From contig MU001705.1 in the NCBI GenBank assembly GCA_010093515.1, forward strand, positions 1 to 64,000: DNA of 64,000 nucleotides, in the 5' to 3' direction. The DNA is from Lineolata rhizophorae (Eukaryota > Ascomycota > Dothideomycetes > Lineolatales > Lineolataceae). Position 1 is the first letter of the stretch. Every line of letters begins with the position of its first letter. This document shows positions 8,512-63,552 of this stretch, in pieces. Position numbers and translations under genes: made by a program. Under the pieces are notes generated by a model. The model was not told where the DNA came from and searched no databases. It worked only from the letters and a program-made list of their open reading frames with translations.

Positions 8512-10164
8512 TCAAATCCCTGCTGCTCGCCCTATTAACCAACCCTTGACCCAACCAAAGCTATCTACAGCACTTAAGCCCCAGCTCCTCAATGGTACGA
8601 GCGGGCCCGACTGGACCCTATAGAGTTTATGCAACTTGTCGACAACGCCTAACATAGCATTGTTGGCAAGGTAGCGCTCCGAGGTGTACGGCTCGAGAGC
8701 GAGAAGACTGCCAATGTCCTGCCCCTGTTCGACGGCACGGGCAATAGTATGGGCAAGGGCAGCAGCGTCGCCTTGACCTTGGTTGAGGCCCTGGCCGGCG
8801 AGCGGGTGGATCGTATGAGCCGCATCGCTGGGAGACGGTCAGGCACAAGCAAACGGCAAGTTTGGGGTCAACTTACCCAACGAGGGCGACACGCTCCCCG
8901 GTGTACGTATCCGCGTGCCGCATCCTTAACGGGAAGCTCGCTATGCTGCTATTCTGCACACCGACAACCCGCATCGGCACCTTGCTCTCGTCCCAGCGCG
9001 TATGCGTCTCCCTCCACGCGACCTCGTCCGCAATCTCTGCTTCCGCTGCGACGCCCTTCTCCCCGGCGACCTGATGCAAATACTCAATGTCCACAGCCTC
9101 AAGCCTGAAACCTGCATTCACCATATGCGCGAAACCGGATCCGGTCCCTAGCCCCTTGAGTATCGTGCTCCTCTTCCTCGTCGTCGACCATACTAGCGTC
9201 GCCATGTCTCCGGGAAGCGGTAACATGGCGATGGGTCCGCTCGGCAGGAACCGTTGGTATGCAACTTTATGCCCGCCACCTCCTCTCCCAAGGCCCTCCA
9301 ACTTCAGAGTGGCTACCACGCCAACAGCATCGTAGTCCCAGCCTCTGCTTTCGATACCCGCAAACGTGCGCACGGGGCTGTTAGCGCCGTCGGCGCCCAC
9401 GAGTAGGCGTGCGGCGAGGCGGCGGCCGTCGGCTAGGGTGACGACGGGCCAGGACGATAGGTCGAGCTTGGGTGTGGATGCGCCAAGAGCGATTGAAGCG
9501 ACGCGCGATGGGGAGAAGATGGCTGTGGACGGTGAGAGCGAGGTGAGTCGTGTTAGGAGGGCGGTGGTGATGTTGGGGTTTTCGACCATGGTGGCGATGG
9601 TGGACATGTGAGAAGGGTTCGAGTCGAAGGAGATCCGTGATGCGGTAACGCCGTCCCAGACTTGCATCTCCTGGTAGGGCTGGACGCGCTCGGTGTGGAT
9701 GTGGCGCCAGGCGCCGATTTCTGGATGATGAGACGGAGCGTCAGTTGTTACCCGCGTAGGTCACCGCTTGGGGTAGGGACCTTTGAGATAGCTGACCGAA
9801 GCCGGTGTCAGCGAGCTGCAGCGGTTCGAGTAGCTCTCCGGCGACGGATTGCGCATCTTGCCCTTGTCGAGGTCCAGGCCGTCAATCAGCGCCATCTTGA
9901 GGTGCGAGGTTGCCGGCGACGATCCTGCGAGGGCGTGAGTCTAGCTCGGTGCGAACATTTCCAATGCTAGCCAGACTCACGCAACCCGGTGAGCAGGCTG
10001 AGCCCGGCCGGACCTCCGCCGACGCAGACGACATCGTACAGCTCTGGCTCCGGGCCCGGGGTAGAGGCAGAGGTAGCTTCGGATGCGAAACCTCGCCGCG
10101 AGGCACCATGTCGCGGAGTCCTGTGGAAGCTGCAGGAGAGCCGCGCGGGCACACGGCGCTGCAT
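8512..10164 (-). CDS. COQ6: Ubiquinone biosynthesis monooxygenase Coq6, mitochondrial
   Basis: Four exons (9981-10164, 9781-9924, 8877-9720, 8512-8827) join in phase to 495 residues. The first 35 or so are Arg/Ser-rich, as in a mitochondrial presequence. The FAD site follows (YDVVCVGGGPAGLSL), then SYSNRCSSLTPASVSYLK, the second FAD motif LLVGADGANSPVR, and the third motif GDAAHTIHPLAGQGLNQGQGD, which is created by splicing exons 3 and 4. Coq6 is the flavin monooxygenase that hydroxylates C5 of the ubiquinone ring, with electrons from ferredoxin, at the matrix face of the inner membrane. The donor of intron 2 (GTCCCT) is weak, but phase and family sequence (LKEIGAW) require it. The gene diverges from the copper transporter across a 281 bp shared promoter. 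Confidence 0.92.
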
Positions 10165-45221: not shown

Positions 45222-48102
45222 ATGAGGTGCCGGTACTACGCCGCACTTTTCTCGTTGGCCATCCCTGTTCTCAGTTTACCTGCCAATAGCACTCAGACGA
45301 ACTCCACCGCTCTTGCTACCCCTCATAATGTCACTACAATTGTGGTCCCAACTCTAAGCCAGAACAACCCTCTACCTGACCCCGACGATGACCGTGACCT
45401 CGATGAATTCCTGGGCATCACTCACTCGGATAGTCCCGGTGCTACCTCTACGTCAACGGCGGAGCCTTACTTTTCAACCGCTCCGGCACCCCCGTCGAGA
45501 TCTCTGATGCCAGCGGTCCCGTGGAACATAGATCTTAACTCGCTGGACAATGTTAAACTAAATCAGACTGCCGAACTCTACTACGCTGAAGTACCGGCTC
45601 GCAATGGAGAGCGTAAGTGACTCCTGCTGTCTATACGGAGAAGTCTCGCTAAGCATCTGTCGCTTTTCGAATAGGGCCACCCGCCAATGCTGGTTGGGGT
45701 ATCGTCACCGTCCCAAACATGAAGTACAAGACGGTTCAGACCGAGAAGTCGAACTTCGTCTCCGAGGTCGTGTGTTCTGGCTCGTCCATGACGGTTAGAT
45801 TCAGTCAGCAAGACGCCTGCGACCTTGCCTGGGAGTCATGGGAGGAGGAAGAGCAGTATATGGTCATCACTGACTCCAGCAACTGCGTCGGTGGCGGGAG
45901 CACTGGCGAGCGCACTTTCTTCCGCGTCGACTGGGCAACTCGTAATGGCATGGAGATCGTTTGCGAGGGTGAAGATATTGGCTTCGAGGAGTCGGTTGAT
46001 GAAGAGGAGAACATTCAGCTCGAGTTTAGTCAGGTGGGCTCAAATTCAGGCAACAGCACGGCCGGATTCACTGCCAACGCCAACGCAGCTGCAAACCCGA
46101 CCAACGCCACGACTTTGGGCAATAACGAGACGCAGCTCGTCGATCCAAGTGGCGACACCTCTTTTGATGAGGAGCTGGATGCCGAGATTGGTGTCATGGA
46201 TGATGAGGCGTTGGCTGAGTATCTAGGCCAGTTCAACCTTACTATCGCCGATTTCTTCGAGCCAGACGATCTGCCGGACTTGGTGTCTGAGGAAGCCGGC
46301 GATCTGAGGAAGCGAGTGGCTCATGCGAGGCGCAATCTCGCCAAGCGTGGCTTGTTCTCCAGGATCAAGAAAGCGTTTAAAAAAGTACGTGCGGTTCATG
46401 ATGCTCCAACGACTATATTCTTAGGGCTAATCTTCTTCAGGTCAAAGAAAAGGTCAAGCAAGCTGTCAAGAAGGTTGTTGAAGTTGTGAAGAAGGCTGCC
46501 GAGACTATCAAAGGTATCGCTTCACCCCTGCACCTCATTTCCAACGCATGCTCATATGGTTTAGATGCCGTTGAAACCGTAGTAGAGGCCCTCGACGAAT
46601 TTACTACGATCAGCAAAACCTTTGGCAGAGATGTCGGCTTCGAGGCCTTCCCCGGTGACCTTGTTGATACTCCCTTCGGCGATGGCGTCCTCCTCTTCTC
46701 TAAGGAGGGCCGCAACGAGACGCTTCGTGTTGACGTCTTTTGCGTCGAGTGTGGTGCCGAAGGTGACTTCCGCATTGACGGCAAGGTCGAGTTCAGCTTA
46801 GTAGCCGGCTTCAAGACTGGCCTTATTACCGCGACTGGCGACATGCAGGCTGGGTTGGCTATCGGCATTCTGGCCAACTTCAACGACGGCGTCGACTTCT
46901 CCAAGCGTATCCTCACGGTCCCGTTGTCGCCCTTTAGCATCCCCGGCATCTTGATTGTTGGCCCTAGCGTGTCTCTGAGTGCTGGCGCAGGCCTCAGCAT
47001 CGACGCCAACGGTCGCTTGTTGGTCGGTGCGAAGGCGGTCTGGCCGAATATCCGCGCGCAGCTTGACCTCATCAACCGTGACAACGTCGCCGAGGGCTTT
47101 ACGCCAGATATCGTACCCATTTTCGAGGCCGGTGGTGACATTACAATCGAGGCAAACGCGTTCCTCGACTTCAAGCTAGCTGTCGGCATTGATATCCTTA
47201 ACGGTCGTCTTGAGGCTTCGGTTGGCCTAATTGACAGGCCCAAGGTCACAGCCACAGCCGAATTTGGCCTCGAGGTTGATTTGGATGGCGTTACCGTGGG
47301 AAACGAGGAGTGCGGTGGCATCGGTATTGAGGTTGGGTTCGACAATGAGGTGTTGTTCGACGTCTTCGGAAACGAATTCAACATCTTCACGTTCAACGGG
47401 CCCAGCTTCGATACCTGCATTCTCGAAGACCTTGCCTCGACCCTCGAAAGTCGCGACCCCTTCAACCGCTTCCATAAGCGCCAGCAAATTTCGGACGAGG
47501 GGGCCTCGTTCACCCAGATCCGAACCCTTGACGGGTCTATCGAGGTTCACTACTCACCCAACGGCAACTCTTACGCTGTCCCGCTCAATAAAGTCGGTGC
47601 CGCTCCCGATGGCGCGGAAGACCTCTCTGACCAGTTCTCCGCGGACCCGACTGGTGCGATGGCGCTTGGAGACACCCTTGGAAGATACTTCCACGGGTAC
47701 GTGGACACAATTCGGGAACTTGGCGTCAGCCGTTTGAGGCTCCACAAGGCCAACCAAATGCCGGAGACGGCATCAATAATGTGAGTATACCCTTTCGAAC
47801 ATTCCATAGGTTATCTGAAGTTCACGCTAACGATTTGCCTCCGCAGGTCCTTCGCAGCTGTTGAGAACGATGAAGGTGGCGATCCTTTCCTCGTCCTTGC
47901 CGATCTCGCGGGCGACATTTACTTCCCCATCATTTGCACCTTCGCCGAGGGCATCTATCCCAAGCTCTTTCTCGCTAATGACACCGACATCGGTGCGACG
48001 ACTCTAATGGATCCAGCCCTCAGGGAGACGATTACGGGAAATGATGTGATTGAGTGTGGCTACCTGCCCCTTACGAACGCCCAACCGGGCACAGAGCTAT
48101 GA
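45222..48102 (+). CDS. Large secreted protein with internal cationic amphipathic helix, 898 residues
   Basis: Exons 45222-45612, 45675-46384, 46441-47780 and 47847-48102 join in phase. A signal peptide (MRCRYYAALFSLAIPVLSLP) is followed by an Asn/Thr-rich sequon-bearing stretch, a Cys-containing beta domain (ELYYAEVPARNG to ERTFFRVDW), an acidic segment, then several dibasic sites (LRKR, LAKR). Directly after KR lies a Lys-rich helix, residues about 356-392, beginning GLFSRIKKAFKK and continuing VKEKVKQAVKKVVEVVKKAA. A long Gly/Val/Asp beta-rich domain with a conserved Cys pair (VDVFCVECGAEGDF) follows. The order recalls the fungal secreted DUF7029/DUF7223-type proteins (from memory, moderate certainty). 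Function is unknown; it probably acts at the wall or outside the cell. Confidence 0.8.
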
Positions 48103-48357: not shown

Positions 48358-49272
48358 CTAGATTTCCTGCAGAAACTCCGTTACAATTTCGCAGAATTGA
48401 TCGAACCCATCCACATACGGCACGTGTCCCGCGCCTTTGATAATTTTTAACTCGACATTGACGCCTTCCTTTCCGGCAGATACGAACCCTTGACGAATTT
48501 GATCCCGCAGTTCTGCCATTGACTGTGGCAAATTAGCATCTCGCTCGCCAACGACGAGCATCGCACGGTCCACTGACGAGCCGACTTTAGGTGTCAACGC
48601 TCTGAGATCAAACGAAGTAAGCGTGAGAGCATTGCAGCATGCTGCGAATCCTTCGACGCTTGTCTTTCTCATGGCCGCCCTCATTCTTTCCGTCTCCGCC
48701 GAATTGACTTCCATCCACGGCTCAGCGAACCATCTCGCCAGTGTCTGCTCAACAATGGAGTCCAGATTGCCTTCTCTTCGTGCTATCTCTACCCGCGGAG
48801 CGAACAGATTCTCGACGCCCGCTACCACTGGAGCGCACGAAATAGTATCGCAAATGACCAGGTTCTTTACAACCCCGGGATTCCGCGTTACGAACACAAT
48901 TCCTGTGGCAGCGCCCATGGATACTCCTATCCAGGCATACAGGCTCGTAATGCCTAGATTAGAGAGGAGACTATAGACGTCATCGGCAATGGACTCAAAG
49001 GTTGTAGATTCGGGATTTGCTGGTGGTGAGGACGAGCCATGGCCTGGTTGGTCGTAGCGGAGAACCCGAAATCCGCGATTGTGTAGCACAGGTACCACGT
49101 GATCCCAGGTCGTAAAAGACGCGCACAGGGAATTGGAGAGCAAAACGGTTGGAGAATATTCATCAGACTTAGGAGAGAGTTCATAGGACATCAAACGTCC
49201 GTCCGGAAGGGAGAATTGATTGGCAGATGGCATGGTGGCGGCACGACCGATGCGTGATGGCAATTTTGGCAA
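48358..49272 (-). CDS. Alpha/beta hydrolase, 3-oxoadipate enol-lactonase-like
   Basis: A single exon of 304 residues. FSLPDGRLMSYEL starts the fold; the oxyanion and cap entry lie at SLCASFTTWDHVVP. The nucleophile elbow is GVSMGAA (Ser118), and the likely acid and base are the Asp of VVGERDAN and the His of GAGHVPYVDGF. Family members hydrolyse 3-oxoadipate enol-lactone in the beta-ketoadipate pathway, though related esterases share this pattern. ATG at 49233 (MPSANQFSLPDG) is also a good start. It diverges from the Zn2Cys6 regulator, with a CGG-N10-CCG site between them, and fits as a late step of aromatic breakdown. It is a broad family, so the substrate is uncertain. Confidence 0.8.
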   Translation of the reverse strand: MPKLPSRIGRAATMPSANQFSLPDGRLMSYELSPKSDEYSPTVLLSNSLCASFTTWDHVVPVLHNRGFRVLRYDQPGHGSSSPPANPESTTFESIADDVYSLLSNLGITSLYAWIGVSMGAATGIVFVTRNPGVVKNLVICDTISCAPVVAGVENLFAPRVEIARREGNLDSIVEQTLARWFAEPWMEVNSAETERMRAAMRKTSVEGFAACCNALTLTSFDLRALTPKVGSSVDRAMLVVGERDANLPQSMAELRDQIRQGFVSAGKEGVNVELKIIKGAGHVPYVDGFDQFCEIVTEFLQEI

Positions 49273-49336: not shown

Positions 49337-49352
49337 CGGAAGCACGCATCCG
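49337..49352. promoter_or_regulatory. Cluster operator 1, CGG-N10-CCG, hydrolase/regulator promoter
   Basis: CGGAAGCACGCATCCG; read on the other strand it is CGGATGCGTGCTTCCG, fitting CGG-ATGCNNNCTT-CCG. It lies 65 bp from the hydrolase ATG and 113 bp from the regulator ATG. Confidence 0.65.
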
Positions 49353-49465
49353 CCAAAGCGCCGAAAATCAGACTCCACCTGAATCCCCGGACTTTAGTAT
49401 CCCCACACTTTCCTGCATCTCAAATATAGCCCACTGCCAGAGCGGAACGACGTCTCCGCCAGGCC

Positions 49466-52257
49466 ATGTCCGCGACAATGAGTGCGCGCCCGGCTAAACG
49501 CCGACGCATCCCCGAAGAGCTAAGAAAGCGAGCGCAACAGAGCTGCGATCATTGCAGAAAAGTGGGTGAAGTGAACGCCAAGGACAGCCTAAAGAAATAT
49601 GCTAATGCTCCGAAGCGCCGCTGCAAATGCGTCCCTTCGGAAATCGAGGGGACGTGTCAAGCATGCTATGAGCATAAAGTCGATTGCTTGTACATGCTGC
49701 CTAGGAAGGCGCGATTCTATGGAAGCGTGGATGGATTGAGTGATCGGTAACACCCCTGCGGCAACCAGCCGATTAAACCAACATCCACTAAGTTGATTCG
49801 CAAGATACCGCTGTCTTGAGGCCATAGTCAACGGCGCATTCCCCAATGAGCCGACGTCGGCAACATCGGACCTGCTCAGTCTGGGGGAGCGAATGGGTTA
49901 CGTCATGCCTGACTTGGCAGATGCAGTTGCTCCCAGCCGGACCGTGTTTCTCAAAAGCCATTCATCCGACGTAGAAGACTGTCGGTGCTCGAGAGCAAGC
50001 ATTCCCAGAGTGACCGAACGGGAATCTCATTCATCAAATGACTACTGGTGATGGCGCTCACGTTCCCCTTGTCCGCGACACTGCTGGGAACTCTCATTAC
50101 ATCGGTCCATCTGGAAGCCTTGCGTTCTTTGCCCAAGTTCGCCGCCTCGTATCTTCACGCCATCCACCTGGGAAGGAGTCCATTCACCCGTCGTCAAATT
50201 TTGCGGGTGACGACACAGCGGAAGCTCTTGAAGCGGAGCGCCAGGAAGCTCCAGAACCGGAGCCGGAAGAGAATTCAGACCAGCGAGACGGCCCTTCGCC
50301 AGCCTCCGTCGCTTCAAGAAGTTCCAGGGATTTTTCAGCCCCAACGCACCCTGATATGGATCAATGCTTGAAACAGCTGCCATCTCATGAGACAATCGAC
50401 GCGAGAATTCAATTTTATTTCGGGAATTGTCATGGAGACTTTCCTCTGTTCCACCGCGCTACCTTCGAAGAAGAGTACGAGACGTACATTGTTCAAGCAC
50501 GGACGACCTCGACCCGAAAATATCACACGCCTCATTTTTTGCATTCGTCTCTGAAAGAAACAGGCTCTGTACGACCGGACTGGGGCTGGCTAGCCTGTCT
50601 TCACATGATCTTGGCCTTCGGGACTAATGGTGGTAATGACGATTCCGTTCGACAAAGTTCCCTCTCGATTACTCGATCACTCCTACCGCAGCTCGTTTCC
50701 AGTTGCAGCGAGTCGAACGTACGAGCGTTACTCCTGCTCTCATTATTTCTCCATAACAATAGCGAGCGTAATGCGGCTTGGATTATGGTCGGAGCCGCGA
50801 CGCGAATTTCACTCGCTCTGGGCCTTCACAGAAGTGACGTGGATCTCTCATTTCGACCGTTTGAGCGCGAGATGCGAAAGCGCATATTTTGCACTCTTTA
50901 CTGTTTTGAACAGTTTCTGAGCTCGAGTTTGGGACGTCCTAGTGGAATCAACGATTTTGATGTCGATATTAGACCACCACGAGAAGGTCTTCTTGATGGA
51001 GGAAGCGGTGGAGTTACGGAATCCAGTCAAAAGCTTCACGCGATTCTTGGCATGGCAAGGAAGACTTCGTTAGGACCGCGCGCAAAATCAGAGCAAGAAG
51101 TAAACCCCTCTCTCTCAGAGATCTTCCAACTCCTTGAAGCCTGGAAAGGGCGAGTTCCTGATCATCTGGATCTTCCTACTATATTCAGCGTGTCTGGTGT
51201 TACCATTCCAATACCTGGATTACACAAGCAAGACAATCCTGCAGCCTTCGATGAACTAAAGGAGTCCTTATCCCATCAGACTCCACAACAACTCCGCGCG
51301 TTGATACTACTGCACATCCAGTACAACTATATTGGTCTTCTCGTCAGCCGCCCGGCACTCCTTCGACACATCTCTTCGAACAACACCAGCACAGAATCAC
51401 CCTCAGAGCATCTTACTTCTATCGCAAGCCTTTCAGAAAGTTGCATATTTCACGGATGCCAATTGGCATTGCTCATCGTTCTAATGGACGCCTTCGATTT
51501 ATTGAATGGGACCTTTAGCCTCGATGTGTTTTACGGCTATTCTGCAGCTATGGTGTTGACATTACGATTGCTCCGAGTACCATCAAAAGCAACCATCAGT
51601 CCGTCTGAGCAATTTTTAGATCCAGGAGAGGCCCAGTTACACATCACTTTGCGCCATCTCATCAGACTCGTCCAGAATTCAGTGGCTCGAATATGCAAGA
51701 GTGGGACGATGAGACGTCTGGCCCGAGTCATGAATAAGTTTGCAGAATTTGCATGCAATGTTACCAATGACTATATCCACCGCGAAAATGACAGACCCGA
51801 AGTTCAACAGACCATTTCACAAAGAGAAGGACACCACGCGGACGCTGATTGTGGAGGATTTCCGAACAACATATTAGCAACGCCAAATAGTAGCACAAAT
51901 TCGAGCGTGAATCAACGGCTGACAGAACATCAAACTGTTGCATCCAACAACTCGAACCCTGGTCTACCGTTCCATAGCCGTTTTGAAGAGCTGCAACCTC
52001 CGACATATCTTTATCAGCACGGTATTTATCAGCGCAACACGGTATTTCCCCAGCCGGGCTTAGCGCAAACTGGATATCTCAATTTATCCACTCCAAGTAC
52101 ATCGCCCCCAATGCTTACTTCCCAACATGGGGTCCATGATCCATCTGTGACAAATCAGGATGTTTGGTCTGACTGCTTCACGTCTGCATTGCAGAATGGG
52201 GATTTGCTAGACTGGGCAGAGCTGGAAAATTTCCTCTCCAGTCAAAACTTTGCTTAA
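49466..52257 (+). CDS. Zn2Cys6 transcription factor, likely regulator of the cluster
   Basis: Exon 1 (49466-49561) and exon 2 (49616-49746) join to form a perfect binuclear zinc cluster: CDHCRKRRCKC, eight residues, then CQACYEHKVDC. The 54 bp intron between them is in frame and without stop. Exon 3 starts at 49805 (RYRCLEAIVNGAFPNE, LGERMGYVMPDL). The frame that holds the rest (LVRDTAGNSHYIGPSGSLAFF and the fungus-specific TF domain with LHMILAFGTNGG, ALLLLSLFLHNN, GAATRISLALGLHR and FCTLYCFEQFLSSSLGRPSGI) is offset by +1. The frames overlap only at 50014-50048, and no GT-AG intron can join them. So this is either an indel (assembly or real) or two proteins. The C-terminal Gln/Asn/Ser-rich tail suits activation. 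Confidence 0.85.
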
Positions 52258-52847
52258 TGGTAAAGTCGGCAACTAGCATAATTGATTTGTTTAGTTTAGC
52301 ATTAATGATTTCGCTTATGGAAGCTTTCGACGGTTTAATTTGCACTTTCCTGCTTGGTTTGCATACGTCCAAAGTTTCCAGCTGGGTCTGGGGATAGTTC
52401 TCTCCAAATTTCAGGGTAAAACAACCTCAAGAAGTATTTTTACCTTATGTAAGAACAATCTAGAGTCATTTCAAACTTGAAAACAATCTATTTCGGGCCG
52501 TACCATAGTATGCCAAGGATTTGTGGATGAACATTGACCTCTGATGGTGGCCCTGACGAAGTTTAAAACCGTCCGGCACGATCAGAAGCTGCAAGGGTCG
52601 GAATGTACTTATCGACGCTTCTCCGACGCTTTTAACCCTTCTCTATGACTTTCAGTTTTCCCGCTACCGGAAGTAGGATTCTTTTCTATTCTGCGGGATA
52701 TATTTGTCCTTACAAAGTTCCCAAGCGTAGTGCCAAAAGCACCAGAAACCTAGTTCATAACTTCATACGATTGAAACGAACCTATAATATGTAAGGCCCT
52801 AGTCACGGCTTGATATCCATAACCCATCATTCTTCAATAGTACCCAT
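52258..52847. other. Convergent gap, regulator and MFS gene
   Basis: This 590 bp stretch lies between two 3' ends. It is AT-rich with no supported coding region or site. Confidence 0.5.
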
Positions 52848-54553
52848 TTAAACAGTGTACCTGAAATCTGGATGCTTCTCGCCTTTCCCTTCAAGATTTT
52901 CAGGCGGCAGGTTCCGTAGGTGCTCACGTTTCCCAGCATCGCGCATGCGGTTCTCATACGCGCCAAAACCCCACATGCATGAACCGGCAATGATGCCAAC
53001 AAATGCGAAGGCGATGCAAGTCGAGATACCAGGGTAGTACCGCGGGCCGTCTTGCTTTGGGAAGACAAGAGCAGAGATGATCCCACCAATCTGACCAGAG
53101 CTAATTGCAAAGGCAGTGAGGGTGCCACGCTTAGTGTATCCCACGACTTGGTTGGATCTATCGCACAAGGAATCAGCATTGGAATAAACGTACAGAGCGC
53201 TGGACTACTTACCCCCAGGCGATGCAAAGTGGCTGAACGATATAAATGCCAATCGCGGCGAAGTACAGTCCCATGTAACGAACGTTGTTGTTCGGATGAA
53301 GCATAACGATCAGCGAGCCCATAATCGAGATGGTGTAACCGGATAAGCAAAAGATACCGCGGCGTTTAACTTTGTCCGACCAAAAAGCCATGGCCACGGA
53401 AACGATACCGGATACAATTCGTACAGGAGCTGTGAGCAAGTTCGACTTCAGACTATCCCAACCGAAACCTGAAAGGATGGTTGGCTGAAAGATGGTAATG
53501 GAATATGCGGTGACACAGACAGCCAAGTACATGACTCCCGTGCAAATGATTCTCCAGTCGGCTAGGGCTCTAAAAACCCCTTTCAGTGTGATCTTCTCTC
53601 TTTCCTTGTTCCTGTAATCATCCGCCTTGAGGCGGCGCAAGAGCCACTCCTTTTCGTCCAGAGAGAGAAACTTTGATTCTTCGGGGAATGGCAGAACGCA
53701 GAAGAAGGCAAGAATTGCGGCAGCGCAAGTCACACCTCCCTCTACAAAGAAGATCCAGCTCCAACCAGAATAGCCCTTGATGCCGTCCATTGAGCCAAGG
53801 CCAGCACCCAGCAGACCAGAGACAGATCCAGCAATGTCATTGGACACCATGAACAAGGCCATGCGAGTCAGGACCTCATGCCGTCTGTACCAGGAGCTGA
53901 TCAAGAAGAGGCAACCCGGAAACATGCCTGCTTCGAAAATTCCGATGAAGATGCGAGCCGTGAGGAGACCTCCGAAGCTTGTTGAGAACCCAGCGAACGT
54001 GACAGACACTGAATGCGTTCATTAGCGTCGAACTCTTTTGCAGGAGAATAAAAAGCCCTTACATCCCCAACCCATCGTTAACCCAGAGATCCAGTAGCGG
54101 GGCTTGATCCGGTTGATAATCATATTGGAAGGAATCTAACGTCGGTAAGTCTTCATAGACAAACTCAACAAGTAACTGTTTAGAATACCTCTAGCAAAAC
54201 GTAAGGAATGTAAAACACTAAAAGTCGTTAGCAGGAAGCACGTTTGTTGTTCAGTTCCGTCTGCACATACCCATAACAACTATGTTGTAGTGGTAACCAG
54301 TCATCCCCAAGTCATCTTCCATCCCCCAAAGCCGTGCATTTCCAATGTTGACTCGGTCAAGGAAGGTGAGGGTGTACAGAAACACCAGCAGAGGGAGTAG
54401 TCTGATGTCAATTTTCCTTATGACTTTCTTGGCCTCGATGGGATCCTCGGCATCTTCACGAACCGACCCTTCGTAAAGCTCCTGGTGTTTGATGTCGGTC
54501 TTCTCGAGGTCGGGGTAGCTACCCCCAGAGGTCTTGCGGTCCAGCGTGACCAT
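52848..54553 (-). CDS. MFS transporter, anion:cation symporter (Dal5/Tna1-like) type
   Basis: Five exons (54271-54553, 54189-54217, 54063-54135, 53213-54008, 52848-53157) join to 496 residues. The N-terminal signature of the ACS family is clear: RKIDIRLLPLLVFLYTLTFLDRVNIGNARLWGME, then INRIKPRYWISGLTMGWG. TM4-5 carry the conserved LLTARIFIGIFEAGMFPGCLFLISSWYRRHE. The central loop has LKADDYRNKEREK, and the last helices end with GQIGGIISALVFPKQDGPRYYPG. ACS transporters take up organic anions such as allantoate, nicotinate and carboxylates with protons. The position in the cluster suggests uptake of its acid substrate (inference). One exon is only 29 bp. Confidence 0.92.
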
Positions 54554-54982
54554 GATGAATGGGGCAAAGGAGAGGGCAAGAAAATTAGAAAACTCCTCTG
54601 GAATGAAGGCCAGCGGAGGACGAAGGATCGGGCAAACTTATGAAGGGCTTGCGGTCGGGGAGCCCATGCCAACCTCCAGGATCATATCAAGCGTAGATCC
54701 CCTGATTGATTTATACTTGGATATCTCTGAATGCTTGGCGGACCCGACGTGGTGGGGATCGTCCGGGGAAGCTCTCGGGGAACCTGGGGTCCCCGCGAGG
54801 AACTGCACGGTTTGACCGAATCGGGAATTAGTCCGCAGCTAGTCGGAGACAGCGTGCGAGTCTGGAGGTAAGCTCCCGTCGCTGTGCATCTAGCGCGCGA
54901 ACTATATTAGGCCGGAAAGGGCCGATTGGCTGCAGTAGTCCGAGGCCCGGCCCCTCAGCCACTGCCCGAAGTGAGCGAGCGG

Positions 54983-54998
54983 CGGATGCATGCATCCC
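54983..54998. promoter_or_regulatory. Cluster operator 2, near-match on the MFS side
   Basis: CGGATGCATGCATCCC keeps CGGATGC and the N10 spacing, but the right half is CCC instead of CCG. It is 430 bp before the MFS ATG. Confidence 0.45.
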
Positions 54999-55556
54999 TT
55001 TCCCAGCAAACTCGGGTGCAAACATTTGCGGATTGACCATCCGCTCGAACTTTTGAATGACGATGGCCTATTCATGCAAGGTCCCACGTGGGCAGCGTGG
55101 AAATGGTTTGGAGCGAACATCCAGAGTGTATGGATCCCGGGCTATCCAGATTCATGGATCGACTCTATCGAGTCCGGCTGGGTCGAGAAATTGATGCGCT
55201 TTGCCCGATGGAGTAGTGCCGACGTGTTGAGCGCCCGCAAACCATGGAACGAGCCTCGAGCTGCCGATTACCATTATCAGACTTCGCGTCGGCTACGTAT
55301 CTTGCGACGAGATAGAGATCCATATCTGGAAAGCATTCCTTTCGCTATGAGTAGATGTCTACGCAGCGCATTTATGGGACACTTACTAGAATCCTTACGG
55401 GCATAGCGCTAGCATAAAATACCATGTATCTGATAGTTGAATATAGGTCTCTTGAGTTTACTACGTAAGGTGTGGGCCCGTAGAGATATCGTTGAAATTC
55501 CCTAGTCCTAGAGGCTCTTGGAATCTGTAGGCTCCATACACTTTCTACACTGCATT

Positions 55557-55572
55557 TGGATGCAGTCTTCCG
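55557..55572. promoter_or_regulatory. Cluster operator 3, monooxygenase promoter
   Basis: TGGATGCAGTCTTCCG is identical to operator 6 except for the first base. It lies 243 bp before the monooxygenase ATG. Confidence 0.6.
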
Positions 55573-55575
55573 CGG

Positions 55576-55591
55576 CGGGTGGATGCTTCCG
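55576..55591. promoter_or_regulatory. Cluster operator 4, monooxygenase promoter
   Basis: CGGGTGGATGCTTCCG, a full CGG-N10-CCG, starts three bases after operator 3, giving a tandem pair about 19 bp centre to centre. Confidence 0.6.
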
Positions 55592-55814
55592 CCAAATGGC
55601 GGCGGCAATTTTGATCACCACCTACGGCCCGAAGTATCAACTGACAAAAGAACATTATGAAAGCCTCCGAACCCTGGACTCTCGGATAACGCGGTTACCT
55701 GGGCTTCATTATTCTACAAATTATATATTCTCCCAAGTGAAGAACTCGTTTTGCTTCGTTTCCGATAGTACATCGCGAGATTAGAAAGACAGGAAACTCA
55801 CAAGTATCTTCAAA

Positions 55815-57141
55815 ATGCCCACCACTGCTTATCCCCGCGACATCCTCATTGTTGGTGCTGGCCTAGGAGGGCTGGCGGCGGGCATAGCTTTGAAGACCGA
55901 CGGTCACAAGGTGACAATCATCGATTCAGCGCCTGAGTTTGCAGAGGTAAGAGCCATCACAGCAATCGTCCGGTAAAGACAATTGACAATCCCAGGCTGG
56001 CGCCGGCATTCGTGTGCCTCCAAACAGTTCGCGGCTTCTCTTGCGATGGGGTATCGACCTCGAGAAAATGAAAAAGTCCGCCTCTAGGAGATATCACTTC
56101 ATCCGCTGGGAGAACGGTTCGACCATCGTGAAGCTGCCCTTCGAGAACATTGTCGAGTCCCACGGCGCACCCTACTATCTCGTCCACCGCGCCGATCTCC
56201 ACACTGGCTTCCTCGAAGCCGCAAAGAGGGCCGGCGTGGTAATCCACACCAACAAGCGCGTGATCGAGTACGACTTTGACGCTCCGAGTGTGAAGACACT
56301 GCAAGGCGAGGTCTGGAAGGCCGACCTTGTCATCGGTGCCGATGGGATCAAGTCCGTCGCACGGCCCCTGCTCACCGGCCAGCCCGACGTACCGCGCGAC
56401 ACAGGCGACGTCGCGTATCGCATCCTGATCCCTGGCAAGGACCTTCTGGCTGACCCGGACCTGGAGTCGCTGATCACGGACCCATGCACGACGTCGTGGT
56501 GCGGGCCCGACGCGCACTTGGTCGGCTATCCGATCCGAGATGGCGAGCTGTACAACATTGTCGTGTGCGCTACTAGCTACAACGAGACGACGGACGAGGT
56601 TTGGGTGGTCAAGGGCGACAACCGCGAGCTGTGCGAGCGCTTCGCCAAGTGGGAACCACGCGTTCAGAAGCTCTGCAGACTCACCCGCGACTTCATGAAG
56701 TGGCGCCTATGCGACCTACCCATCCTTTCTCGCTGGGTGCATCCTTCCGGCAAGGCCTGCCTGCTGGGAGACTCCTGTCACCCGATGTTGCCGTATCTAG
56801 CTCAGGGTGCGGCCCAGGCTGTCGAGGATGCCGCCGTGCTGCGGCAGTGTCTGGCAGCGCAAAAAGATTTGGGTGTTGCGCTCAAGCAGTACGAGAGCAT
56901 TCGCCTACCGAGGTCATCGCTCGTGCAAGAGAAGACGCGTGAGCACCAGTATATCCTTCACATCGAGGATGGCGAAGAACAGAAGGCGAGAGATGTCCGC
57001 ATGGCCCTCAATTCCCAGGAAAACCCAGTATTCTGGGGCTACGACGATAGGCGTAACTGGCTCTTTAGTCACGATGCCGAGGTTCTGAACGAGGACGGCG
57101 CAAACTGGAAGCCTCAGGGACACGCTGTGAAGGCTCACTAG
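55815..57141 (+). CDS. FAD-dependent aromatic monooxygenase, salicylate-hydroxylase-like
   Basis: Exons 55815-55946 and 55996-57141 join to 425 residues. The FAD dinucleotide fold is at the start (DILIVGAGLGGLAAGIAL), completed after the 49 bp intron by AGAGIRVPPNSSRLLLRWG. The second motif is LVIGADGIKSVARPLL, and the third is CLLGDSCHPMLPYLAQGAAQAVEDAAVL. This is the group A flavoprotein family (salicylate 1-monooxygenase, 3- or 6-hydroxybenzoate hydroxylases), which uses NAD(P)H and O2 to hydroxylate an aromatic ring, often with decarboxylation. The substrate cannot be read from sequence. Two operator-like sites stand upstream. Confidence 0.9.
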
Positions 57142-57658
57142 GATGTCGGGTGCCGAATTCGAGCACGATGATAAGTCCTTTACCAGTCCAGAATATAAAA
57201 ATAGTCGAACGTATGCATTCAGCACAATCCAATTTGACTGCATTTTTTCATGTCTTGAATCTAGTGGACTCCGATAGATGAGAACAACATACCTGTCATG
57301 TTATTAAAACTTACATTTGAACGCTGGTTAGCTGCAGTTGAACACGAGCAGTGAGCTAATCGCACCTTGATCGTGGGATACTTTGACTAGGATATGTCAC
57401 TACCAAATGCTTGACATTTTCGGACTAGGACCCCTCTAGATTTACTAGCGTTGGTTAACGTCTAAACTCTTGACGTAGAATGAGAGCCATAGAATAGAAA
57501 TTCTTTCAAAGTCATTGCTCAAACGAGCTCTTGGTGTATGCGTGGGATTTCATTCTTGCCGGAGATATCAAGGTGCGAATAAAATTGCAAATCTTAGACT
57601 ATATATAAAAGTGGCACTCACAGGATTTGGGAGACATCATGACAAAAATGTTTTACTT
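57142..57658. other. Convergent gap, monooxygenase and FMN enzyme
   Basis: This AT-rich stretch between 3' ends includes TATATATAAAAG near 57600. It is not placed as a promoter because no gene starts nearby. Confidence 0.5.
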
Positions 57659-58996
57659 TCACAGTTTACTCAAAATATCTGGGTGTGCAGGCATCAAGTA
57701 CTCCGGTCCCAGCTGCTTCACATTCGAACATCCAGCTAGCCCCATGCAAGAGCGAAACTCATCCTCCAGGATACTCAACGCGAGCTTGAGTCCATTCTCT
57801 CCATCATAAGCAATCGCCCAAAGGGCCGGCCGGCCGATCCAGACCATGTCGGCACCCAAACACAGCGCTTTGAATATGTCGGATCCTCTTCGGACGCCCC
57901 CGTCGAAGTGCTGGGATAAGCGTTAGATTGAGAACAACAGACAATGGCTTCAATATAAATATACACACCACAGGTATGCGGCCATTGATCACTTTGGCAA
58001 TGCCGGGCAGGACCTCGAGTGTGGGTGGCGCGCAGTCAAGTTGACGGCCACCGTGGTTGGATACAATGATAGCGTCGACACCATATTCGACGGCAAGCTC
58101 GGCATCCTCGACTGAGAGGATCCCCTTCAGCCAGATGGGGAGTTTTGTGACGGTCCTGAGATAGGAGATGACGTTCCAGGTCATGGAGGGGTCGTTCTTG
58201 TTTGGGGGCTGGCCTGATTCCAGCTTCGCGCTACTATTGCTGGGGTTCGTCTTTGCGAGTTCCTCAGTTCGTAGTTCGGAACCGGTCTTGACCCCGAGGC
58301 TTGCATCAAAGTTAGCCATACGTAAGTGAGGCGGCACACGGAACTCATTGCGGATTTCCGTAAGCCTCCTTCCGAAGTACGGAGTGTCGACCGTAAGCAC
58401 TATGGCCTTGTATCCAGCGGCTGCACCCAGTATTAGTACAGGCACATCCCGCTCCACATACTAGCAACATTCCACAAGGCTAGCCCCAACTTACCTTCGG
58501 CCCTCCAGATCAGCCCCTCACTTACGCTCCTATTTTCAAACAAATACATCTGCAACACACACTCACTTCCGCCCTCCAAGCCTGCCTTCGCCCTCGTCCC
58601 GTCCGCCTCCCGCTTCACTTCCTCCAACCCCGTCATGCTAAAGCTGCTCAGCCCCATCACCGTCCCGTAGGCTCCGCACGCCCTCGCCGTCGCCGCCTCG
58701 CCCTCCGGATGCGCCATTTTCTGCATCGCGGCGGGCGCGACGCACAGCGGGAAGGGCAGCGAGTGGCCATCGGGAAAGGCGCGCGCCGAGAGGTTGAGGT
58801 TCGCGACGTCGCGCAGCACACGCGGCCGGATCCAGTGCCGTGCGTAGGCAGCGCGGTTGGCGCGCAGGGTGATGGAATCGAGTGCCCCGCCGTTGAAGTA
58901 GTCGCGCGCGAACTTAGGCAGGTGCGCGTTGGCGTAGGATTCGAGGTCGTCGATGGTGAGCACGCGCGGCTTGTGGGACATTGTGGTTGAAGTCAC
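57659..58996 (-). CDS. FMN-dependent 2-hydroxyacid dehydrogenase/oxidase
   Basis: Exons 58495-58996, 57969-58420 and 57659-57910 join to 401 residues. The family blocks are in order: YFNGGALDSITLRANR, LPFPLCVAPAAMQKMAHPEGE, GLSSFSMTGLEEV, KAIVLTVDTPYFGRR, LPIWLKGILSVEDAELAVEYG and the active-site SNHGGRQLD (catalytic His, substrate-binding Arg). The FMN phosphate loop HFDGGVRRGSDIFKALCLGAD is made by splicing exons 2 and 3. Members (glycolate oxidase, lactate and mandelate dehydrogenase) oxidise an (S)-2-hydroxy acid to the 2-oxo acid. There is no N-terminal cytochrome b5 domain, so it is not flavocytochrome b2-like. Between the monooxygenase and the decarboxylase, it should be the entry enzyme of the chain. 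ATG at 58981 is an alternative. Confidence 0.92.
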
Positions 58997-59530
58997 GTGG
59001 ATACGTAATAGCTGTTGAGTGAGGACGGTGTGTCGAGGCGCAGATTAGACTACAAACAGAATACGCGTTACATGCGGCGGGCCTAGGCTCATTTTCTGGA
59101 CAGGCCCGGCACCAATTGAGCTAGAGATGAGCGGTCGAGAGCATGACGCTGCGAAGATCATCGGAAGGCTGCATCCGTGAGGGCCACGGAGGAAGCCGGC
59201 CGGAGCTTATCCATTAACTTTGACTGTTTTGTTGAGGAGCACTGCGGGCTGGTTGAAATTTAGATTACGAATTGTGGAGTTCTCTCGAATTCGCGCGCGA
59301 TTTCTCGCGATAATCAGAGTTTCATCCCAGCGCCGAGAGCAACATGATTGTGATTCTCTCACGTGATTACGCGTTAACGTCTTCTCATCGTGCTTGTTGG
59401 TCGAAGCCTTCTGAACTCTGACTCGAGATGAGGCCAATTCACAATTCGCGTCCTTGGCAAACAAAGACGTCAATCGTTCGATTTCATTCATCTACACTGC
59501 CAAGACGGTATCGATAACATTGAAGACGCT
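58997..59530. promoter_or_regulatory. Promoter region of the FMN enzyme
   Basis: The gap between the FMN enzyme start and the ThDP enzyme stop has no gene. It holds a full operator at 59162-59177, a CACGTG directly before the ATG (about 58994) and another near 59360. Confidence 0.5.
59162..59177. promoter_or_regulatory. Cluster operator 5, FMN enzyme promoter
   Basis: CGGAAGGCTGCATCCG; on the gene's strand it is CGGATGCAGCCTTCCG, which differs from operator 6 by one base. It lies 166 bp before the ATG. Confidence 0.65.
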
Positions 59531-61486
59531 CTAAATCTTGGGAATCATAACCTCCACGACCGCAGACCGGCCTTCCTCGCGCACCACCCGAATCGCCTGC
59601 TCGCATGCCTTGTCCACCTCGAACACGCTCGTCACCGTCGCCCACCACGCCTCCCCGGCCCCTTCGGCGATCTTGCCAAATGCCGGCGACGGATCAATAG
59701 CTGTGAGCATGCTCTCGCTGAGCTGGCTGACGCCGGCAGCGCTACCATTCTGTCTCACCCCAAACGTCTCGCCCACCTCAGGGTGGATGCGCAGGCACGC
59801 GTTCTTGGGCGAGGCCCAGCCGCCGTTGTTCCAGATGATGGTCACAAAAGGGGTGTTGTACTTGCGCGCCATCCAGTAAGCGCAGCTGGGCACGCCGAAG
59901 AGCCAGGTGCCGTCGCCCGCGAAGGCGACCACCAAGGGATCGTCTCCACCTTCAGCCACTTTGACCTTGAGCCCCATGCACGCCCCGATGGCGCCGCCGG
60001 AATACCATCCCAGCGCCCCGCCACCGCTTCCAATCAACGACAGCGGCGCGTCGTGCCGGAGGTGGTCCGCCACGCTGCCCAAGTTCGTTGTCGACTCGTT
60101 TAGCCCGACGACCCTAACGCCCGCCGCGGCCGTCGCGGTGCGCAGCCGCGCCATGAAGAACGGCGCCGTGACGGTGCCATTCTCAGGCGGTGCCTCCGCT
60201 CTCACGAGCCGCTCCTGGCGCGCCGCGAAACGCTGGCGCAGGGAGTCTGTGCGCGAGGCAAGGCGATGCTTGGTGCCGGGGACCGCGAAGGAAGGATGGC
60301 GGGTGATAACATCGGCTAGCTGACGCAGCGCTACGCTCGAGTCGCATTTCCAGCGCTTCTCGCAGGGGAGGTACCACAGCGTAGTGCCTTCCTTGAGTGG
60401 GTCGCTGTCTAAGTGATATATAGCGGCCGCATCGGCAGGTTTAGACTGCGCGGATATCCACGGAACGTCCGAGTCAACGACGAGGACGACATCAGCCTCG
60501 GCCAGGGCGAGGAGCTGCCCGCCGCCGTTCCACTGGTGGCCTTGGTGCAAGAACGACGTCGTCGGGAAATTGTTGTAGATGGGCGCGTTCTCGTGCACGG
60601 CGATGGAGAGCAGCTCTGCGACCGTTTGCAACGCGGCGAAGCCCGCCGCGGTGCGTCCGCAGTAGCTCGTCACGATCAGGGGCCGCTCGGCGGCCAAGAG
60701 CACGCTCGCGAGCTCGTCGAGCGCGTCGGGCATCAGGCCGGTTGTCTCCAGGGCGCCGTTCTTCCTGAACGCCTGCGACGGCTTCAGTGGTGCGGCGAAT
60801 GGGTCGGCGATTTCTTGCTCCAGCGTCTCACGTGCCGCAATCAGGTACGTTGGGCCTTGCGGCGAGGAAGTCGCGAATTGTAGCGCCCGGAACACGATTT
60901 GCGTGGCGTTGACGGCATTCCGGATTTCGTGCTCGTAGCGCATGTATTGCCGGACAATGGCGCGCTGGTCCGGCACGTCTTGTATCCAGTGGATGTACCT
61001 GATGTGCTGTCAACTGGCTGGTCCAATTTCGGAAATTACTGGCAGCAGGGGTTTTATTTCGCCCAAATGCGCGAAGCGAACGGACACTCACTCGTTCCTA
61101 CTGCCCTTCAACTCTCCTTCTTGAGTAATTGGTACGGTCCCCGCCATAATTATGACCGGTATCCGCCCTTTGCTTACATTGTGCACCGCGCCGGCCAGAC
61201 CCTGCGTGCCGCACTCGACATGAACAAGCACCACGGCTGGCTTTCCGGTCACCTGCGCGAACCCTGAGGCCGCGGACAATGCGTTCATTTCATTTGGTGA
61301 CGTGAATATCTGCAACATTGACTCGGTTGTTTTTTGCTGAACAAACGCGGAGAGAAATGCTGGGTGATCTGATCCAAGGTTTACGAATAGATGCGTGATA
61401 CCTGCGGCTTCCAGTGCTCTCAAAATGGCCCTGGCACCAGTAATGGTGTGTGCCGCACCATTGCTATTCCCATTAACGGGCGTCAT
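59531..61486 (-). CDS. ThDP-dependent decarboxylase (benzoylformate decarboxylase/ALS-like)
   Basis: Exons 61092-61486 and 59531-60998 join to 620 residues. The PYR domain has the ThDP-activating Glu in FTSPNEMNALSAASGFAQVTG. The splice builds NEYIHWIQDVPDQRAIVRQY. A central domain follows (about residues 210-350). The PP domain has the cofactor motif GDGTWLFGVPSCAYWMARKY and IIWNNGGW (GDG to NN). This family is often labelled acetolactate synthase in fungi, but the biosynthetic enzyme has a different N-terminus and a regulatory partner. Beside a 2-hydroxyacid dehydrogenase and an aldehyde dehydrogenase, decarboxylation of a 2-oxo acid to an aldehyde is the best reading. It diverges from the aldehyde dehydrogenase and shares operator 6 with it. 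Confidence 0.88.
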
Positions 61487-61946
61487 GCTGGGTGGTGGTT
61501 TTTGATTGCAATCGACTTGAATAACCCAGAGATAGAGAGTTACATTTATTAGGGTGACGTTTTAGCACTATTGATCATGGGTAGATTTCAAATTACAGAG
61601 TAGGCTCCAGTATCTTGTCCTCAACCAGTAGTGATCAACTTAGCATCTAGCGTTCCATGAGTCCCGTTGCGTGGCGGATGCAGTCTTCCGTCGGCAATAC
61701 TGCGGTCTAAGTTCCGGGGATCAGTGCTTCCGGCTCTGCCCCGCATAACGACGCCTCCGCTCCACAGCTTTCCTGCGAAGATCACGGTCACAGACCGCAG
61801 AATGGGTCTAGGAATATTGAAGATCGGCAAGCTCAGGTGAAACCCGGTCAACATGTGCGCTTAAAAACACTGTTCTAGAGAGGAAAGTATAGGATTGATT
61901 TCCCGGGTTTCTGTTGTAAGGAGTTTCTGATGTCCGTGTCATTACC
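61487..61946. promoter_or_regulatory. Shared divergent promoter, decarboxylase and aldehyde dehydrogenase
   Basis: A 460 bp gap with both genes starting outward. It contains operator 6 and no coding region. Confidence 0.55.
61675..61690. promoter_or_regulatory. Cluster operator 6, decarboxylase/dehydrogenase promoter
   Basis: CGGATGCAGTCTTCCG, a full CGG-N10-CCG, lies 189 bp from the decarboxylase ATG and 257 bp from the dehydrogenase ATG. It shares 15 of 16 bases with operators 3 and 5. Confidence 0.7.
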
Positions 61947-63552
61947 ATGGCCATGCCAAACGGGACCGCTACCCAGGCGTCCCCGACTTCGCTCTCGGAC
62001 GAACAGCTACTCTTCATTGATGGAGAGTACACGAAATCGTCCAAGGGATCAACCTTTCCTGTCAAGAATCCCATGACAGGAGAGCAGCTCTATCAAAGCG
62101 CTGCAGCCGGTAAAGCGGACTACGAAATCGCAATCCAGAACGCGCACGAAGCCTTCAAGTCATGGTCTTCAACGCCGCCATCGGCAAGACGACTGATATT
62201 TCTCAAAGCTGCGGACATTTTAGAAAGCTATCTCAAACAGGATGCGCCAGAGATTCTGTCGGCGGAGGTGTCGGCCGTTCCTAGTTGGGTCAAGGTCAAT
62301 GTCTTGGCCACGGCAGGCATCTTGCGCGAAACGGCGGGCTTAGTGACGCACATTAAGGGAGAAATAGTGCCAGCGGATAGGCCAGGAACGACAATCATGG
62401 TGCTGAGAGAAGCAGTTGGCGTGGTGTTCGCCATGAGTCCTTGGAACGCTCCAGTATGTGCTAAAAGTTGCTAGGGCACCGATCAAAGCCACAAAATACC
62501 TAAGGGGTTAAGCAACTCACCAACTCCACCAGGTCAATCTCACTGCGCGTGCCATTGCCACTCCGCTCATCTGTGGCAACACCGTCATTCTCAAGCCCTC
62601 CGAATTCAGTCCCAAGTCCCAGCACCTCGTCGTCCGTGCCTTGCGAGTTGCCGGTCTGCCCAAGGGCTGTCTCAACTTCCTACCCACAAGTCCCGCCGAC
62701 GCTCCCGCCACGACCGAATTTGCCATCAAGCACCCGCTGGTGCGTCGCGTCAACTTCACAGGCTCATCGCGCGTCGGCCGCATCATTGCGGGCCACGCCG
62801 CGTCCGTGTTGAAGCAGTGCGTGCTGGAGCTGGGCGGAAAAGCGCCCGCATTGGTTCTGCGCGATGCGACTATTCCAGATGCTGTCGATGCCATTGTTTT
62901 CGGCGCGCTATCGAACAGCGGGCAGATCTGCATGTCCACAGAACGCGTGATTGTGGATCAGGCGATTAAGGACGAGTTCATCAGTTACTTGCTGGAACGC
63001 GTGGCGAAGGTACGATACGGCAACCTCCTCGACCCTGCAATGGCGGACGTCTCCATGTCGGGCCTCTTCTGCGCAGCGTCCACCGAGCGAGTCATCGAAC
63101 TCTGCCGCGACGCCATTTCCCAAGGCGCCAAACTGCTCGCCGGTGACCTCGAGGCGCGCGGCCCGCAAGGCACCATTCTGTCGCCCATCGTGCTTGACGG
63201 CGTCACGCGCGACATGGCCGTCTTCCGTGATGAGACATTCGGCCCAGTCATGTGCCTGTGCGCCGCGGACGGCGACGACCATGCTGTTGCTGTCGCGAAC
63301 GACTCTGAATACTCGCTGTGCGCGAGCGTCTTCTCGGCCGACGTCATGCGCGCTCTCGCCGTGGCGAGGAGGGTGCGTGCCGGCAGTTGCCATGTCAACG
63401 GGCCGACAGTATATATTGAGGCGACCTTGCCAAACGGCGGAACTGGGGGCGCAAGCGGGTATGGAAGGTTTGGTGGGATTGCGGGAGTGGAGGAATTCAC
63501 GGAGAGAAAGATTGTAAGTTTGGCGGAGCCGGGGATGACATATTCTTTTTGA
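61947..63552 (+). CDS. NAD(P)-dependent aldehyde dehydrogenase, 508 residues
   Basis: Exons 61947-62453 and 62533-63552 join to 508 residues. The splice builds the cofactor-side block SPWNAPVNLTARAIATPLICGN. The NAD(P) site TVILKPSEFSPKSQHLV, NFTGSSRVGRIIAGHAA, the catalytic Glu in VLELGGKAPALVL and the catalytic Cys in NSGQICMSTERV are all present, as is the C-terminal DETFGPVMCLCAADG. The sequence resembles the salicylaldehyde/benzaldehyde dehydrogenase subgroup (VNFTGSSRVGR, SNSGQICMSTERVIVD), from memory. It would oxidise the aldehyde made by the neighbouring decarboxylase to a carboxylic acid. The ATG at 61947 is followed by a second at 61953. Confidence 0.92.

Follow-up and report, generated by a model that had tools for sequence, protein, structure and literature searches.

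A 16-bp inverted CGG/GGA site recurs in all promoters of a putative aromatic-acid gene cluster of Lineolata rhizophorae

A stretch of 64,000 nucleotides of the ascomycete Lineolata rhizophorae (GenBank assembly GCA_010093515.1, contig MU001705.1, positions 1 to 64,000; hereafter the window) contains a cluster of seven genes at 48.3-63.6 kb, one of which encodes a regulator with zinc-cluster (Zn2Cys6) and fungal transcription factor domains. All genes of the cluster have in their promoters an inverted CGG/GGA pair at fixed spacing, more often than chance would give. Quite probably this repeated site serves as dimer operator for the Zn2Cys6 activator encoded in the cluster, which would control its own gene together with an aromatic-acid pathway. 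Read in this way, cluster and operator clearly exemplify a type of gene control that is already known.

In an earlier note on this DNA, six 16-bp sites had been placed in five promoter regions of the cluster, and all six were recovered at their positions. Four of them (49337, 55576, 59162 and 61675) have the full CGG-N10-CCG form, whereas the left triplet is TGG in 55557 and the right triplet is CCC in 54983, as had been claimed. Each of the five promoter regions indeed contains at least one site. Physically, however, there are four intergenic stretches, one of which was divided in two: the 1261 bp between the divergent genes for a major facilitator superfamily (MFS) transporter and a flavin adenine dinucleotide (FAD) monooxygenase were split at the midpoint. 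Three of the four stretches are divergent, namely those between hydrolase and regulator, between MFS transporter and FAD monooxygenase, and between a thiamine-diphosphate (ThDP) enzyme and an aldehyde dehydrogenase (ALDH); the promoter of a flavin mononucleotide (FMN)-dependent oxidase is the sole one serving a single gene. The five regions thus serve seven genes, and a site lies upstream of every one of them, regulator included. Distances from the sites to the assigned start codons are 104-430 bp according to the gene models and, for the hydrolase, the open reading frame. The sites are listed below, with mismatches counted against the consensus of the earlier note, CGGRTGCNNNCTTCCG, and ranks taken from the directional and symmetric matrices in which the promoter concerned was held out.

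49337..49352, minus strand: putative operator site CGGATGCGTGCTTCCG in the divergent hydrolase/regulator promoter; 0 mismatches, held-out rank 2 directional and 1 symmetric
49443..49458, no strand assigned: weaker second CGG-N10-CCG / GGA-N8-TCC site directly before the regulator ATG; interior a poor match, 3 mismatches
54983..54998, plus strand: putative operator site CGGATGCATGCATCCC in the MFS promoter region, 430 bp from the start codon; 2 mismatches, held-out rank 2 directional and 1 symmetric
55557..55572, plus strand: first putative operator site of the FAD monooxygenase promoter, TGGATGCAGTCTTCCG; found in the consensus, held-out and at most 1-mismatch scans
55576..55591, plus strand: second putative operator site of the FAD monooxygenase promoter, CGGGTGGATGCTTCCG; starts 19 bp past the start of the first
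59162..59177, minus strand: putative operator site CGGATGCAGCCTTCCG upstream of the FMN oxidase gene, 181 bp from the ATG; 0 mismatches, held-out rank 1
61675..61690, plus strand: putative operator site CGGATGCAGTCTTCCG in the divergent ThDP-enzyme/ALDH promoter; 0 mismatches, held-out rank 1, seed of the de novo motif
61717..61732, plus strand: weaker second site GGGATCAGTGCTTCCG in the ThDP-enzyme/ALDH promoter, 42 bp past 61675; GGA-N8-TCC core

The start codons of the hydrolase and regulator genes lie 104 and 114 bp, respectively, from the 49337 site; those of the ThDP enzyme and ALDH genes lie 189 and 257 bp from the 61675 site. When the full model was scanned, the weaker 61717 site ranked 9 (symmetric) and 13 (directional). 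A mobile repeat as the origin of the sites was rejected, as their flanks differ.

With both strands read, the motif is better written as the near-palindrome CGGAWGC-NN-GCWTCCG with the core GGA-N8-TCC. This core geometry is found in five of the six conserved sites, 55576 having GGG at the left. Of the 30 position pairs inside the triplets, 16 are complementary, compared with 7.5 by chance (binomial P 8e-4, a generous value since the sites were preselected), and the most palindromic copy is that at 54983, with complementary inner pairs in 5/5 cases. An asymmetry, T in the left half and A in the right, is kept in five of the six. For the FMN oxidase promoter and the FAD monooxygenase half of the divided stretch, the asymmetric sites share their direction relative to the gene; these are too few cases to prove anything.

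The triplet pair CGG-N10-CCG alone was not enriched in the window (19 copies, 23.6 expected). The five promoters contain 6 copies compared with 0.74 expected by length, and a spread over four regions was equalled by 2 of 5000 random placements at N10; the significance of the spacing becomes weak once every spacing from 0 to 30 is allowed to compete, with 401 of 5000 placements then doing as well. The signal resides in the interior. With up to one mismatch to the consensus allowed, the window holds 6 matches (0.27 expected), a number that none of 100 shuffles reached; these six include a coding copy at 56734 in the FAD monooxygenase gene and omit 54983. Looser matching came close to background, with 58 matches at 3 mismatches (42.8 expected; 3 of 100 shuffles reached 58) and 15 for the palindromic form (13.2 expected; reached by 36 of 100 shuffles).

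The best 16-mer shared by the promoters, determined de novo with no motif supplied, was the site at 61675, with a score of 55 of 64. None of 300 shuffles of the promoters themselves (46.1 +/- 0.8, maximum 49) and none of 300 random region sets (maximum 50) reached this score. When matrices were built leaving one promoter out, the held-out site ranked 1 or 2 among ~63,950 positions in the directional form and 1 in all five cases in the symmetric form, and the top-scoring site of each held-out promoter was one of those of the earlier note. The GGA-N8-TCC core occurs nine times in the promoters, compared with 1.17 by length, and in all five regions. Whichever spacing between 0 and 20 was used, 0 of 5000 placements attained nine copies, and 4 of 5000 covered all five regions; the core was picked after the sites had been seen, so that this correction covers the spacing and not the choice of triplet. 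Random placements were drawn from positions 1-48500 (1-48000 for the de novo test) irrespective of coding status and are not a pure promoter control.

The eight best matrix sites of the window all lie inside the cluster. Six are those of the earlier note. In the directional full model, the top score outside the cluster was 12.0, compared with at least 21.3 for the cluster sites. The 7th and 8th best, 56734-56749 and 58359-58374, fall inside the coding sequences of two genes of the cluster and were treated as coincidence, which is not proven.

The earlier note had interpreted the site as one of the Zn2Cys6 type, and this interpretation is supported by a zinc-cluster gene in the cluster and by the form of the site, in which the two CGG triplets are inverted and the half-site is extended and partly palindromic. 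In the regulator, a 54-residue stretch reached 21.8 bits for the Pfam family Zn_clus (cut-off 21), while a 113-residue version of it matched no Pfam family at E 0.001. Once a proposed intron within the zinc-cluster codons (49562-49615) is removed, the cysteines are spaced CX2CX6CX8CX2CX6C, and the zinc cluster is weakly similar in sequence to LAC9, Gal4 and Put3 (E 3e-4 to 0.6). The Fungal_trans domain (PF04082) is clear, with 82.1 bits and a cut-off of 23. The likeness to Put3 drawn in the note holds for the spacing and is limited to it: the Put3 site of Saccharomyces cerevisiae is likewise CGG-N10-CCG, but its interior sequence and pathway are other than those of the cluster operator, and the Put3 structures 1zme and 1ajy were marginal matches to the regulator's zinc cluster (E 0.5-0.6).

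In the proposed mechanism, the two zinc clusters of a homodimer would each sit on one of the inverted CGG triplets, and the dimer would also read the adjacent A-W-G, contacts that would give rise to the near-palindrome CGGAWGC-NN-GCWTCCG. Sitting in all five promoter regions and switched on by an aromatic inducer, the activator would turn on uptake, side-chain and ring steps together. The regulator gene would be self-activated via the promoter that it has in common with the hydrolase gene.

One result concerning the regulator gene weighs against a simple form of this mechanism. Splice variants were enumerated in which the first intron was kept constant and up to two, but at least one, more introns of 40-140 bp were allowed, with limited donors and any AG acceptor. 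Twelve models joined the zinc-cluster exons to the Fungal_trans frame, all via an acceptor ending at 50117 that removes the residues before LAFFAQVRR, which are expected to be coding; the stretch lost in this way is usual in this protein class. A stricter enumeration with CAG and TAG acceptors only gave zero models joining the two, and codon bias is ambiguous over about 49.92-50.12 kb. Since the exons join in the enumerated models only through the 50117 acceptor, the regulator may be disrupted here. An assembly indel, an unusual intron or a disrupted gene are possible causes of the frame problem at 49920-50120.

The imperfect frame bears on who binds the site. It is unlikely that the binder is another Zn2Cys6 protein encoded elsewhere, for instance a wider aromatic-acid/hydroxybenzoate regulator, with the cluster regulator being non-functional or not the binder. 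The frame that is not cleanly joined would fit this, as would the use of inverted CGG/GGA pairs by other zinc-cluster proteins as well (passages of PMC8929692), but the cluster does contain a zinc-cluster gene with a site in its own promoter, and the gap in score between sites inside and outside the cluster favours a local binder. A real shared promoter element serving a general factor instead of a pathway regulator is an even less attractive explanation, which we rate as very improbable. General-looking elements do accompany the sites, CACGTG being present in 3/5 promoter regions and SYGGRG (CreA-type) matches in 4/5; on the other hand, no comparable copy is present in the ~48 kb that precede the cluster and include several housekeeping genes, and Zn2Cys6 sites typically consist of inverted triplets (passages of PMC8929692). 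Finally, a chance resemblance picked by eye among promoter sequences is scarcely credible. The bare triplets, the any-spacing result and the near-background loose matches speak for it, but it was largely refuted by the de novo, held-out and GGA-N8-TCC tests, the last with the reservation on triplet choice given above.

The cluster whose genes the candidate Zn2Cys6 activator would control comprises the following genes. Models were built by hand for five of them, and open frames were used for hydrolase and regulator.

48358..49233, minus strand: alpha/beta hydrolase gene, 3-oxoadipate enol-lactonase (PcaD)-like; open frame, Abhydrolase_1 69 bits
49466..52257, plus strand: Zn2Cys6 + Fungal_trans regulator gene; Zn_clus, Fungal_trans, splice enumeration and codon bias
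52848..54553, minus strand: MFS transporter gene with 5 exons; spliced model of 496 residues, MFS_1 123.6 bits, 3' end computed from the model
55815..57141, plus strand: FAD monooxygenase gene; spliced model, PDB matches 8x38, 8gsm and 8r2t at 296-303 bits
57659..58981, minus strand: FMN-dependent 2-hydroxy-acid oxidase/dehydrogenase gene; spliced model of 396 residues, PDB matches, 3' end computed from the model
59531..61486, minus strand: ThDP enzyme gene, likely aryl-2-oxo-acid decarboxylase; spliced model of 620 residues, PDB and NCBIfam matches
61947..63552, plus strand: ALDH gene; spliced model of 508 residues, Aldedh 309 bits for the frame with the second exon

Apart from the regulator, the frames of the cluster genes read cleanly in the models, with short introns present. 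A further gene at 54975-55406 was rejected, with no Pfam family at E 1e-4.

Judged from protein families, the cluster fairly likely encodes hydroxymandelate-type catabolism ending in hydroquinone. The MFS importer would bring in a mandelate-type aromatic 2-hydroxy acid, probably 4-hydroxy- or 4-hydroxy-3-methoxymandelate, which the FMN oxidase would convert to the 2-oxo acid. The ThDP decarboxylase would then yield the aldehyde, ALDH the acid, and the decarboxylating FAD monooxygenase (methoxy)hydroquinone; the PcaD-like hydrolase would act after ring opening.

The FMN enzyme is a clear member of the Pfam family FMN_dh, and its PDB matches include 4-hydroxymandelate oxidase (228 bits) and (S)-mandelate dehydrogenase (198 bits). 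For the ThDP enzyme, the nearest solved structures are benzoylformate decarboxylases (74 bits), and it passed the NCBIfam model NF006203 (495.5 bits, cut-off 456), a family named merely thiamine pyrophosphate-requiring protein, with no substrate in its name. The three best PDB matches of the FAD monooxygenase were a vanillate 1-hydroxylase, a 4-hydroxybenzoate decarboxylase and an unnamed FAD protein, followed at 172 bits by tropone 2-monooxygenase; by these matches the enzyme is nearest to the decarboxylating vanillate / 4-hydroxybenzoate 1-hydroxylases. The hydrolase scored 139 bits for the NCBIfam model protocat_pcaD, below the equivalog cut-off of 255.85, and ALDH reached no NCBIfam cut-off among the 25 families shown.

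A scan of genome contigs with the ThDP enzyme gave five bacterial loci (L001-L005), which were used for their neighbours only; neighbouring open reading frames of at least 180 residues were scanned with Pfam (10/10, 10/22, 8/9, 6/21 and 6/20 of those in L001 to L005, respectively). The ThDP relative in L001 has a mandelate-racemase-family gene, ALDH and a Rieske oxygenase as neighbours, that in L002 homogentisate dioxygenase and fumarylacetoacetase, and that in L003 ALDH, a FAD_binding_3 monooxygenase and a Rieske oxygenase. Such aromatic-acid neighbours hint at an aryl-2-oxo-acid decarboxylase function for the NF006203 enzyme. In scans of viral contigs, neither the FAD monooxygenase nor the regulator had any relatives.

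A number of results count against the hydroxymandelate pathway. Lactate, hydroxyacid and glycolate oxidases outscored the mandelate enzymes among the PDB matches of the FMN enzyme, and the ThDP enzyme stayed far below the cut-off of the benzoylformate-decarboxylase equivalog (79.2, cut-off 493). The best NCBIfam model for the FAD enzyme was 3-hydroxybenzoate 6-monooxygenase, at 265.6 below its cut-off of 459. Family scans of the seven cluster genes did not find a mandelate racemase, and L004 and L005 were without aromatic-ring genes among the six open reading frames tested in each. The operator could be what it seems while the cluster serves another 2-hydroxy acid, e.g. phenyllactate, lactate or glycolate. 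Both the top-scoring lactate and hydroxyacid oxidases and the family without a named substrate allow for this, but an aromatic-ring monooxygenase most similar to decarboxylating hydroxylases shares the cluster with a PcaD-like hydrolase, and the structures nearest to the ThDP enzyme are benzoylformate decarboxylases; we consider a non-mandelate substrate rather unlikely.

The nearest described system found for the cluster and its putative operator is that of Otf1 in Candida parapsilosis with its hydroxybenzoate (3-oxoadipate) genes, MNX1 among them (passages of PMC8929692). Otf1 is an activator with Zn2Cys6 and fungal transcription factor domains, and its site, supported by gel shift, is an asymmetric 16-bp GGR-N10-WCC in the hydroxybenzoate promoters, including those of the decarboxylating 1-hydroxylase MNX1 and a transporter (passages of PMC8929692). 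Common to both systems are the activator domains, an inverted asymmetric 16-bp site and SYGGRG sites in the promoters, but the spacing differs, with GGR-N10-WCC for Otf1 (passages of PMC8929692) and GGA-N8-TCC with outer C/G in the cluster. Unlike in the Otf1 system as those passages present it, one type of site here fronts the whole cluster including regulator and side-chain enzymes. Copies of the Otf1-type GGR-N10-WCC likewise exceeded expectation in the cluster promoters (8, compared with 1.80 by length; 54659-55684, 59098, 61716 and 61920), with copies in 4/5 regions and none in the hydrolase/regulator promoter. Neurospora qa-1F is likewise the activator of a catabolic cluster with a palindromic 16-mer, GGATAATCGATTATCC (passages of PMC8929692); unlike the cluster operator, the qa-1F site is absent from the window at up to 3 mismatches (0 matches).

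TerR of the Aspergillus terreus terrein cluster is also a zinc binuclear cluster factor whose high-affinity motif was derived from the genes of its own cluster; it differs in binding CGG direct repeats, TCGGHHWYHCGGH, and in that its cluster is biosynthetic, not catabolic (passages of PMC4360782). The Pseudomonas mdl/bzf genes offer a parallel in content, bzf likewise having benzoylformate decarboxylase, aldehyde dehydrogenase, a transporter and a local regulator, but they are bacterial and the regulator is of the LysR type (passages of PMC7760541); the ThDP enzyme of the cluster, moreover, fits NF006203 instead. In the VhyA/MhdA/OmeA vanillate route of Aspergillus niger, vanillate hydroxylase yields methoxyhydroquinone, like the proposed ring step, whereas the PMC8336404 passages contain no 2-hydroxy-acid oxidase or ThDP decarboxylase, and 'mandel' and 'regulator' occur 0 times in the main text. 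A. niger is reported to convert mandelate via benzoylformate, benzaldehyde and benzoate to protocatechuate (passages of PMC12388069), a ring route different from that proposed for this cluster.

Among the matches listed for open-access PMC text, none concerned a fungal mandelate-type cluster or this operator by title or start of abstract. The strings CGGN10CCG and CGG-N10-CCG gave none among the matches listed, nor any title on fungal gene regulation, and a GGA-N8-TCC core inside CGG-N10-CCG geometry was not met there for any aromatic-acid regulator. The most specific description, a fungal cluster for hydroxymandelate or lignin-derived aryl-2-oxo acids with (methoxy)hydroquinone as end product that is self-controlled via a GGA-N8-TCC-in-CGG-N10-CCG operator with the half-site CGGAWGC, is offered tentatively. 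If it is true, the decarboxylase would give the NF006203 ThDP family a function. An A. niger review notes that aromatic-compound metabolism has only a few identified regulators (passages of PMC12388069). The putative operator and its candidate regulator tie the predicted pathway to a testable inducer; the operator sequence could be used for finding co-regulated genes in related fungi, and the site could double as an inducible promoter element.

Other shared promoter elements were examined as 6- to 8-mers and as CACGTG, CCAAT, SYGGRG and HGATAR. In the cluster promoters, no 6-, 7- or 8-mer would remain significant once the numbers of words tested (1416, 2092 and 2339) are corrected for; four of the top words overlapped the operator (GATGCA, GGATGCA, TCCGCCA and CGGATGCA). 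The octamer TCCGGGGA/TCCCCGGA has three copies in the window (49384, 54762 and 61713), all of them in cluster promoters, and was not significant after the same kind of correction; it includes a match to the CreA-type SYGGRG, as would be expected of a glucose-repressed cluster.

The upstream part of the window contains eukaryotic housekeeping genes according to Pfam, including those for a BRR2-type helicase, NAT10, SF3B1, TAF2 and VPS53. Outside the cluster, two long overlapping frames with DUF7029 and DUF7223 domains at 45653-47784 perhaps form one gene, and a further frame at 8873-9760 shows a weak FAD_binding_3 match.

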